NCBI RefSeq assembly: GCF_018967645.1
Contig: NZ_JAHLZF010000006.1
Span: 62,001-126,000 of the forward strand
DNA from: Allobacillus halotolerans
Lineage (GTDB): Bacteria; Bacillota; Bacilli; Bacillales; Alkalibacillaceae
DNA: 64,000 nt
Direction of reading: 5' to 3'
Both the position numbers and the translations under genes were made by a program. Numbering within the stretch: the stretch's first letter is position 1; each line of letters starts with the position of its first letter. Of the stretch, positions 52,315-54,932 are shown in pieces. The notes below the pieces were generated by a model, which saw only the letters and a program-made list of their open reading frames with translations, did no database searches and was not told the origin of the DNA.

Positions 52315-53025
52315 TTATTTAGCAATGAATAATTGTGTCCAATAAGTCTCCATTTCTCCACCTTCTTCATAACCGACACCAATGTGGGTTACATTCTCAT
52401 CTAAAATGTTCTTTCGGTGCCCCTCACTTTTCATCCAACCATTCACGACGTCTTCTGGATCAAAAAATCCTGCCGCTATATTTTCAGCCGCCACTTTGTA
52501 TTCGATCTCAAATTCATCTAACATGTCAAAAGGTGAACCATATGTTGGGGATTCGTGGCTAAAATAATTGAGTTCAGCCATGTCTGCTGACTTTTCTTGA
52601 GCGACGTCCTGTAACTCCTTGTCGATTTCCAAAGCCGGCAATCCATTCACTTCTCTTTCACGATTCGTTAACTCAACAACTTCTTCCAGCAAATCGTCTA
52701 GCTGTGATGGCGTTTTAATGGAATCTCCATCTCGCTTTTCAGGTGAACCGATCCCTGGGCGTGGGTCAATTTCTGATTCAAATCCACGTCGATTCCTTTC
52801 ATTCGGACGTTCACGTTCCTTTGTTCCTAATGGATAATCCGGATTCTGGATCGAATTTGGATCACCATCATTTGCCCACCGACTTGTTCGTGGTCTCTCT
52901 TGGTCACCATCTCCATCGAAACTCACCGGGTCTGGTTCAAATTGAAAATCAATACTTTCTTCTTCTTGGCCGCAACCGACACAAAAAAGAATAATTGCAA
53001 ATAAAATTACCGATAACTTTTTCAC
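52315..53025 (-). CDS. CAP-domain (SCP-like) lipoprotein
   Basis: A 236-residue lipoprotein: lipobox FCVGC with Cys18, an Arg/Asp/Pro-rich disordered linker (20-110), and a CAP/SCP domain (about 112-236) close to Bacillus YkwD. Markers are NYFSHESPTYGSPFDML, AENIAAG and NGWMKSEGHRKNIL with the conserved His and Glu residues. CAP proteins act extracellularly; the activity is not settled in bacteria. The ATG at 53025 has AGGAGGG upstream. The 52-bp repeats lie directly upstream in its promoter region. Confidence 0.88.
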   Translation of the reverse strand: MKKLSVILFAIILFCVGCGQEEESIDFQFEPDPVSFDGDGDQERPRTSRWANDGDPNSIQNPDYPLGTKERERPNERNRRGFESEIDPRPGIGSPEKRDGDSIKTPSQLDDLLEEVVELTNREREVNGLPALEIDKELQDVAQEKSADMAELNYFSHESPTYGSPFDMLDEFEIEYKVAAENIAAGFFDPEDVVNGWMKSEGHRKNILDENVTHIGVGYEEGGEMETYWTQLFIAK

Positions 53026-53108
53026 TGATATACTCCCTCCTTTAGGTGTCGTTAGTTTTTGTGTCCGTGAAAAAAATATGCCCCTGAATTGTGTCGGGCA
53101 TATTATTC

Positions 53109-53385
53109 GTTCGGAAGTATAATGCGTTCCTATAAGACTTTTCGGATTTATTTTTTCGTCGCTCGGGGGTATAGAGCGCTTCTATAAGACTTTTCGGATT
53201 CATTTTCTCGTCGCTCGGGGGTATAGAGCGCTTTTATAGGACTTTTCGGATTTATTTTTTCGTCGCTCGGGGGTATAGAGCGCTTCTATAAGACTTTTCG
53301 GATTCATTTTCTCGTCGCTCGGGGGTATAGAGCGCTTCTATAGGACTTTCCGGCCTTAATTTTTCGTCGCTCGGGGGTATAGACG
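53109..53385. repeat. 52-bp tandem repeat array (six units)
   Basis: Exact 52-bp spacing of GCTCGGGGGTATAGAG at 53161, 53213, 53265, 53317 and 53369, with a diverged first copy at 53109 (GTTCGGAAGTATAATG). Each unit also contains CTATAAGACTTTTCGG and TCGTCG. Units two and four are identical, and units one and three share a different TTTATTTTTT block, so a 104-bp duplication is likely. The period is not a multiple of 3 and nothing in it is coding. It sits between the M20 dipeptidase terminator and the CAP gene. A related 52-bp array begins at 63919. Confidence 0.9.
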
Positions 53386-53413
53386 TATTCAGGGTTTTTA
53401 TTTTCTTAAAAAA

Positions 53414-53447
53414 CAAAAACCGCACAGCATAAGAATATGCCGTGCGG
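53414..53447 (-). terminator. Terminator of the M20 dipeptidase gene
   Basis: CCGCAC/GTGCGG and GCATA/TATGC form a stem with two mismatches. On the minus strand TTTTTGTTTTTT follows. Confidence 0.75.
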
Positions 53448-53555
53448 ATGGATGACATATCTCGACACTCAAATAAGATCAAAAACTTCACGAAATGTCA
53501 TCGAGTACGTGTCTCGTTACTCAAATGAGCGCGATTATATCATTAATTATAAATA

Positions 53556-54932
53556 TTAACCTTTATAATCATTCAACATATAATAATAATGGGCCAAAGT
53601 CTCCATACCTTTATCGAAATTCTCAAGGTTTAAGTGCTCATTTGGCGCATGTAAATTCTCATCTGGTAAACCAAAGCCCATTAACACAACGGGTACGTTC
53701 AAAATCTCGTCCAACTCAGCTACGATCGGAATGGATCCACCACCACGAATGTAAGCCGTCTCAGCTTGATAAACTTTCTCATAAGCCTTTGCAGCCATCT
53801 GAATAACTGGATGATCGAATGGTGTGACGTATGGTTTTCCTTTATCAAATGGCTTAATGTCAACACTAACACCTTTTGGCTTATGTTTTTCAACGTGATT
53901 GGTCAGTAACTCAACGATCTCATCTGGATCTTGATCAGGAACTAAACGGCAGGTCACTTTAGCTGTGGCTTTATTCGGTAAAACCGTTTTGATACCTTCA
54001 CCTTGGAAGCCACCATAGATTCCATTGACCTCAAGCGTTGGTCGAACCGATGTCCGCTCGACATAGCTATACCCTTCTTCTCCATCTAACTCAGAAACAT
54101 TCAATTCATTTTTTAATTTTTCTTCATCAAATGGTACGGATGCAAGGGCATCTCGTTCTTCTTGCGATAATTCCGGAATTCGGTCATAAAAGCCATCGAC
54201 TTGGATTCGATTATTTTCATCTCGGAAGCTGTCAACAATTTTTACTAGCGCGTGAATTGGGTTGACAACACCTCCACCATATTCACCTGAGTGCAAGTCA
54301 CTTTTCGCTCCTGTGACATCGATTTGAATACCGGCAAGACCTCTTAAGCCATACGTAATTGTCGGTTTACCTCTTTCAACAAGTGCGGAGTCAGATACAA
54401 CAATTAAATCCGCTTCGAGCAAATCTTTTTTCTCTTGGGCAAATTTCGGTAGGTTTGGACTGCCGACTTCTTCTTCACCTTCAATCAGTACTTTAAAATT
54501 CACAGGGGATTCGTCGGATGATTTCAAGATTGCCTCCATGACTTTCAGATGCATGAATACTTGTCCTTTGTCATCTGTAGCACCACGCGCATAAATTTTA
54601 TCATCACGAATGGTTGCATCAAATGGTTCAGAATCCCATAATTCTACAGGGTCGACAGGTTGAACATCATAATGGCCATACACGAGTACGGTTGGTGCGT
54701 TCTCATTGCTTATGTACTCACCATAAACAACCGGATGACCTTCAGTAGACATAATTTCAGCATGACCAAAGTCGATGTTTTCTAATTCATTCTTCACCCA
54801 TTCTGCTGCTTTTTTGACATCTTCATTATGAGATGACAAAGCACTAATACTCTGGATGGATAAAAATTCTTTTAGTTCACTTAAATGTTTTTCACGATGC
54901 TTCTTTAAATATTCAATTACTTCATTTTGCAT
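53556..54932 (-). CDS. M20-family dipeptidase
   Basis: A 458-residue cytoplasmic zinc dipeptidase of the M20/M25 clan with lid domain. Motifs: VYGHYDVQP (metal His and Asp), YARGATDDKGQ (bridging Asp), EGEEEVGSPN (catalytic and metal Glu) and HAPNEH near the C-terminus. The type is close to bacterial carnosinase-like dipeptidases. The ATG at 54932 follows GAGGAGG. Stand-alone. Substrate range is not readable. Confidence 0.9.
   Translation of the reverse strand: MQNEVIEYLKKHREKHLSELKEFLSIQSISALSSHNEDVKKAAEWVKNELENIDFGHAEIMSTEGHPVVYGEYISNENAPTVLVYGHYDVQPVDPVELWDSEPFDATIRDDKIYARGATDDKGQVFMHLKVMEAILKSSDESPVNFKVLIEGEEEVGSPNLPKFAQEKKDLLEADLIVVSDSALVERGKPTITYGLRGLAGIQIDVTGAKSDLHSGEYGGGVVNPIHALVKIVDSFRDENNRIQVDGFYDRIPELSQEERDALASVPFDEEKLKNELNVSELDGEEGYSYVERTSVRPTLEVNGIYGGFQGEGIKTVLPNKATAKVTCRLVPDQDPDEIVELLTNHVEKHKPKGVSVDIKPFDKGKPYVTPFDHPVIQMAAKAYEKVYQAETAYIRGGGSIPIVAELDEILNVPVVLMGFGLPDENLHAPNEHLNLENFDKGMETLAHYYYMLNDYKG

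Follow-up and report, generated by a model that had tools for sequence, protein, structure and literature searches.

Arrays of 52-bp units with inverted half-sites are dispersed at gene ends in Allobacillus and related bacteria

Upstream of a CAP-domain lipoprotein gene in Allobacillus halotolerans lies a short tandem array, and the question it raises is whether such an array serves the gene next to it, is a local duplication, or belongs to something larger. We analysed the 64,000-nucleotide stretch that holds it (the window, G000:C56:62001-126000) in the 2.72-Mb draft genome of A. halotolerans (G000), together with the genome of A. saliphilus (G001) and further genomes, from which loci bearing L-numbers were fetched for comparison. 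The array and its neighbours in the window are the following.

53124..53383, + strand: five complete 52-bp units, starting at 53124, 53176, 53228, 53280 and 53332 (TRF, weight-matrix scan)
53124..53383, + strand: layout of each unit, with left half-site, T-rich linker and right half-site; ~6 bp separate the units
About 53108..53123, + strand: degenerate right half-site left over from a sixth unit (from the sequence)
53130..53138, + strand: left half-site CTATNNGAC, first copy; further copies at 53182, 53234 (TTAT variant), 53286 and 53338
53164..53175, + strand: right half-site CGGGGGTATAGA, first copy; further copies at 53216, 53268, 53320 and 53372
52315..53025, - strand: CAP-domain lipoprotein gene, 236 aa, downstream of the array (PF00188, 3.1e-23)
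53556..54932, - strand: M20 peptidase gene, 458 aa, with its 3' end towards the array (PF01546)
53420..53447, - strand (53410-53449 by own script): intrinsic terminator of the M20 peptidase gene, directly before the array (terminator scan and own script)
53068..53103, - strand: second terminator-like hairpin, in the gap between array and CAP gene (own script; the other terminator scan reports 53410-53449 alone on the CAP strand)

TRF places the array at 53130-53383 with a period of 52, 4.9 copies and 91% matches, and the weight-matrix scan finds five complete units spaced at exactly 52 bp over 53124-53383. The sequence-only reading from which we started had counted six units; its exact 52-bp spacing holds, and the number becomes five complete units and a degenerate remnant. 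Units two and four are identical, as it had said, and of the variant that it saw in common between units one and three the T-rich linker is indeed shared, although the two units differ at four positions. The array is non-coding and, as had also been recognised, has no unique spacers of the kind that would make it a CRISPR, the entire unit being repeated at a within-array identity of 0.82. A 104-bp local duplication, offered as its history, covers units two and four at most and leaves the origin of the array unexplained. Within each unit the half-sites are inverted, the left one reading CTATNNGAC and the right one, (G-rich)NATAG, reading CTATNCNCC as its reverse complement; dyad axes centre on unit positions 3 and 29 and so recur at 26-bp intervals. 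The weight-matrix scan gave no unit matches in base-shuffled loci, and the window array is far beyond chance expectation.

The window array is one member of a dispersed family and not a one-off at the CAP gene. A duplication of the latter kind had been expected to show an identical copy number in all strains and a unit absent from the rest of the genome; unit number varies among orthologous arrays (5/4, 9/5, 4/7 and others), and blastn with the window array gave 22 matches in its own genome, 17 in that of A. saliphilus and none in 58 other genomes. The fetched stretches contain 17 arrays in G000 and 12 in G001; since two of the pairs among them are each a single array split between contigs, the numbers are about 16-17 and about 11-12 arrays, respectively. 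A weight matrix trained on the Allobacillus arrays produced 168 scored unit matches, including some weak ones and a few from the second strand at L046, at 28 loci in the two Allobacillus genomes, with the CTAT/GAC/ATAG letters retained in 160-168 of the 168. A model of the unit plus the next left arm, scored on the best 150 of about 800-1600 candidates per genome, matched 100 times in G000, 73 times in G001 and not once in the remaining 20 genomes of the family. We then searched 257 Gb of genome contigs with a pattern of 20 fixed bases, for which we estimate ~0.5 chance matches, and obtained 84 stretches. The 80 listed fall in 15 genomes: Sutcliffiella horikoshii (2), Bacillus sp. RO1, RO2 and CHD6a, B. 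niameyensis, three Neobacillus, Lederbergia, Oceanobacillus sp. Castelsardo, two Allobacillus and two Trichococcus. At 2 mismatches the pattern matched 12-108 times forward and 4-99 times in reverse in six of the seven named genomes tested, compared with 0-1 for reversed-pattern controls. The Trichococcus stretches are single two-unit matches, with one forward match against one reversed control in T. flocculiformis, the seventh genome tested, and were judged to be chance. Mobile elements as carriers were likewise set aside, the CTAT-pattern search giving 0 matches in IMG/VR and blastn with the window array giving 0 in phages and 0 in plasmids. One array of B. niameyensis (G060, C6:3404398-3407630) has >60 near-identical 52-bp units in one run, as against 3-10 in Allobacillus.

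The same geometry occurs with other arm sequences. A blind 400-kb sample of the complete genome G015 held three more 52-bp arrays, with arms ATGANGG(A/C)C, laid out like the CTAT arrays as a 9-bp half-site, a 27-bp linker, an inverted half-site and 7 bp. The corresponding ATGAAGGMC pattern matched in five of 22 family genomes (matches per strand: G015 179/181, G016 48/53, G010 30/31, G018 15/16, G012 11/11) and in none of the remaining 17, with 0 matches for reversed-pattern controls. CTAT or ATGAAG arrays are thus present in seven of the 22, and neither tested arm in 15, which shows that the family as a whole does not depend on these sequences. Arrays with other arms and a period of 51-52 also adjoin CTAT arrays (L026, L032, L049, L052, L062, L063, L066, L077, L116, L122, L127, L153). 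TRF reports 102 arrays of period 52 in the fetched loci, which proves little about the period because most of these loci had been picked either with a 52-bp pattern or for their similarity to the window array; the exceptions in period are a two-copy repeat of 47 bp (L077), half-unit periods (25-27 bp) and the 114-bp period of L102 (52+62).

The genes that flank the arrays are unrelated (CAP, M20 peptidase, MscS, RecR, EF-Tu/S10, aconitase, BshC and others), and divergent gaps seldom hold arrays. Both flanking genes were called for 63 arrays, of which 45 lie in co-directional, 14 in convergent and 4 in divergent gaps, the numbers for array-free gaps of 50-1500 bp being 140, 44 and 58; the use of convergent versus divergent gaps differs with p = 0.0095. 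In this set Allobacillus orthologues count once, Sutcliffiella strains are not de-duplicated, and arrays at locus edges or within ORFs are excluded. The 45 shared clusters of flanking genes that were listed reveal no evident partner gene family and resemble orthologous loci or common paralogues. A NERD-domain gene adjoins arrays in Allobacillus and, as a homologue, in Oceanobacillus sp. Castelsardo (L024, L055, L115, L089); as a candidate partner it was judged a coincidence.

Our preferred reading, to which we give a probability of roughly 0.45, is that the arrays are helically phased binding tracks at gene ends for a putative protein with a chromosome-organising role, resembling BIMEs in their working only. 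Most likely, a DNA-binding protein with sequence specificity would sit on each dyad as a dimer; the exact spacing (52 bp being five turns) would set dimers of the same kind on one face of the DNA and so favour a cooperative nucleoprotein track; and such tracks, at about 15-45 loci in each genome, would serve to mark or organise the chromosome, as a topological boundary or anchor, rather than regulate single genes. If this is true, the gene ends of several Bacillus-like genera bear protein tracks by the dozen, oriented and phased with the helix. A bolder extension, which we regard as possible if doubtful, is that these arrays represent an undescribed and widespread class of bacterial satellite with a conserved geometry (five turns, two alternating dyads) and diverse sequence, whose half-site specificity would change from lineage to lineage and from array to array, as though following a fast-evolving family of lattice-forming DNA-binding proteins; replication-oriented and at gene ends, they would form a chromosome-organising system apart from ParB, Noc and SMC sites. 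In the open-access literature, with most subscription papers outside it, we found no description of such arrays.

Several known systems share part of this form. Noc, SlmA and parS systems use dispersed palindromic protein sites on the chromosome, as the 52-bp arrays putatively do, from which the latter differ in being tandem and variable in arm sequence. Noc itself was rejected as the reader of the arrays: it is found in 22/22 family genomes and CTAT/ATGAAG arrays in 7/22, so its presence does not track them. ParR-type plasmid centromeres consist of 20-bp iterons whose repetition at whole helical turns seeds a protein superhelix. The 52-bp arrays likewise repeat at whole helical turns, but at many chromosomal loci, with half-sites that are inverted rather than direct, and the scanned genes beside them include no partition gene. 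The element bcr1 is not known to form tandem 52-bp arrays; like bcr1 and other MITE-like repeats of Bacillus, the arrays are dispersed, intergenic and present in Bacillus relatives. PMC3733652 classes bcr1 as a MITE and describes REPs as carrying a GTAG or CGTC tetranucleotide beside the palindrome. REPs and BIMEs are extragenic palindromes of regular spacing and alternating orientation (PMC2817692), which a work cited in PMC12306157 places at the ends of transcription units. The 52-bp arrays are also extragenic, dispersed, regularly spaced palindromes in alternating orientation at gene ends. They differ in that their consensus has, by eye, no GTAG/CGTC tag, that they form no stable stem-loop and their arms are not stem-like (from the fold of the window array and covariation), and that they have fixed spacing, an orientation relative to replication and several arm sequences. 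The RAYT domain (Y1_Tnp, PF01797) gave one match in G000 and none in G001 despite the 11-12 arrays there, and for its absence from G001 a RAYT/IS200-type partner was rejected. On the grounds of RAYT, tag and stem-loop, we do not file the arrays as REP/BIME.

E. coli BIMEs are nevertheless the nearest working counterpart (PMC2817692, PMC6463007). In a scheme on their model, which we consider unlikely though worth keeping in view, arrays at gene ends would be BIME-2-like topological sites that bind DNA gyrase, or another topoisomerase or HU-type protein, and relieve transcription supercoils. The BIME-like layout (PMC2817692) and the gene-end placement fit, and BIMEs bind gyrase at least 10-fold above random DNA (PMC6463007); gyrase, however, is a general enzyme, yet arm sequence varies between genera and between the arrays of one genome. 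The arrays resemble BIMEs, but their spacing constraint, orientation and presence or absence by species are measurable, which makes array function a testable question.

The spacing itself looks constrained, judging from sequence comparison. Adjacent Allobacillus units at 52 bp (n=122 pairs) carry 1000 substitutions, next to four other spacings (103, 105, 105, 106), each of which spans a single unit that was missed. This count leaves out units with scores of <=30, two of which, at the ends of L045 and L048, hold further indels by eye, making 4-6 changes. In 40 orthologous non-array gaps we counted 586 substitutions and 75 gap events (Fisher p 1e-26 for 1000:4 versus 586:75), a comparison of within-genome units with between-species gaps that, at 1000:4-6 versus 586:75, serves as a guide and not as a rate. 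Left-arm distances across all genera are 402 at 52, 17 at 51, 4 at 53, 4 at 62 and few others, steps of 51 bp being less rare when all genera are counted. The earlier suggestion that spacing by five helical turns matters for protein binding gains support from this constraint and from the integer-turn exception in L102. Alternatively, in-register homogenisation rather than a protein could keep the spacing. One 78-bp step (52+26), like a register shift by one dyad, interrupts a 17-unit array of S. horikoshii CH28_1T (L088, 2229-3179), where N is present and an assembly artefact is possible.

Homogenisation is the core of a further alternative, in our view rather unlikely, by which the arrays are a neutral or selfish satellite spread by recombination and slippage, in-register exchange keeps their spacing, and placement at gene ends reflects tolerance. 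Units are more alike within arrays (identity 0.82 in G000, 0.79 in G001) than between orthologues (0.72) or different arrays (0.66, 0.64), the former excess over orthologues indicating concerted evolution. Unit number per array ranges from 3 to >60, and contigs end inside arrays (L031/L034 on G000 C14 and C8, L041/L044 on G001 C78 and C77, the halves matching one locus in the other genome), so the short-read assemblies are broken there and copy numbers are uncertain. Arrays can also be species-specific: of seven G000 arrays without a G001 counterpart, four (L027, L029b, L032, L033) stand opposite short array-free gaps, at the G001 site of L030 there is an array with other arms, and for L025 and L026 a flank is missing or moved in G001; such differences could reflect either gain in G000 or loss elsewhere. 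All of this suits a satellite. Against it, nine array loci are common to G000 and G001, with flanking proteins a median 93.7% identical, and all nine also bear arrays in A. salarius; the 20-30-fold shortage of indels, the identical geometry with unrelated arms and a bias in orientation likewise argue against it.

We set the orientation of each array by its GAC/G-rich arm asymmetry and the strand by local GC skew. Among 52 clear arrays 42 are lagging, 8 leading and 2 ambiguous (p 1e-6, ignoring shared ancestry), and without the clarity filter 105 arrays give 68 lagging, 19 leading, 2 ambiguous and 16 undirected. Single genomes yield lagging:leading counts of 13:5 in G000 and 11:0 plus one ambiguous in S. 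horikoshii CH28_1T. In the complete genome G015, scanned in 60 stretches (25 at known array positions, 35 evenly or arbitrarily spaced), 46 arrays of >=2 units divide into 27 lagging, 4 leading and 15 undirected (p 3e-5), with ratios of 18:3 on the left and 9:1 on the right replichore; GC skew switches near 1.05 and 2.65 Mb, and noc lies at 2.69 Mb. All 8 clear arrays in convergent gaps are lagging, and in co-directional gaps 22 arrays are antisense and 7 sense to the genes, so orientation is partly confounded with gene direction. Conserved and G000-only arrays (8:1 and 3:4) gave p = 0.11, and we claim no difference.

Orientation by replication raises the prospect, quite unlikely in our estimation, of a replication-strand element related to the fork or to segregation, for example a set of markers that become sparse towards the terminus, as nucleoid-occlusion sites do. 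The lagging-strand orientation recurs in two lineages with different arms, and in the plus-strand list of G015 at <=1 mismatch, 33 clusters up to 2.77 Mb, none falls at 0.818-1.581 Mb, which holds the terminus, a gap of a length reached in 0.1% of uniform simulations. A looser scan, however, finds an array at 1.468 Mb within this gap, arrays of G015 are thin elsewhere too (about 0.12-0.56 Mb), and the pattern comes from one genome; avoidance of the terminus is therefore no more than a hint. Also contrary to this proposal, Noc (TIGR04285) is encoded in every family genome, arrays or none.

Transcription offers another setting, in which protein-bound arrays would act as insulators or roadblocks against read-through beyond gene ends. 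A terminator directed at the array lies on the array's 3' side in 23/56 and on its 5' side in 9/56 cases, those beside arrays and pointing away numbering 4 and 3 (n=56; orthologues included in both counts), and the use of convergent and co-directional gaps would fit as well. We find this proposal improbable, since a terminator is often already present and since orientation follows GC skew in convergent gaps too.

A promoter or contingency repeat tuning the CAP gene, the role first proposed for the window array, is very improbable. The array lies upstream of that gene in a conserved neighbourhood (L037) and copy number differs between species; to say that it fills the promoter region was nonetheless loose, as it ends 98 bp short of the start codon, flanked on the CAP strand by two hairpins that resemble intrinsic terminators, and a scan of 52900-53620 found no sigma-70-like site on that strand, all four found being on the + strand. 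In the A. saliphilus (L060) and A. salarius (L067) orthologues no terminator-like hairpin was found on the CAP side. The same element stands beside unrelated genes, and divergent gaps, the ones that contain promoters only, are under-used (4/63 arrays), which speaks against a role specific to CAP.

An RNA element, with hairpins or a CRISPR- or guide-like array, is scarcely credible despite the tandem repeats with dyads, for unique spacers are lacking, the window array folds worse than shuffles on the + strand (z +2.62) and ordinarily on the - strand (z -0.66), and an Rfam search of 701 bases gave none above the gathering threshold and two sub-threshold matches only. Across 85 array consensuses, orthologues included, arm pair 11-47 is Watson-Crick in 37/85 versus 29.4 in shuffles (p 0.01), a weak covariation, and arm pair 12-46 in 25/85 versus 26.9, with no covariation; this argues against hairpins and is expected of half-sites.

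A second type of array was seen in the family, in which a direct repeat recurs at 20.5-21 bp, or two helical turns, with a motif that differs from array to array (L161:3674-3917, L031:3629-3787, L095:6973-7197; G002 L186/L187, G007 L194, G012 L198/L201). Samples of G002, G007 and G012 hold direct arrays of 41/42 bp, equal to two such steps. A tandem repeat of period 122 in G015 (L162:8969-9360) bears no obvious resemblance to the 52-bp arrays. Where both flanks of a 20.5-21-bp array were checked, the gap proved to be convergent or co-directional.
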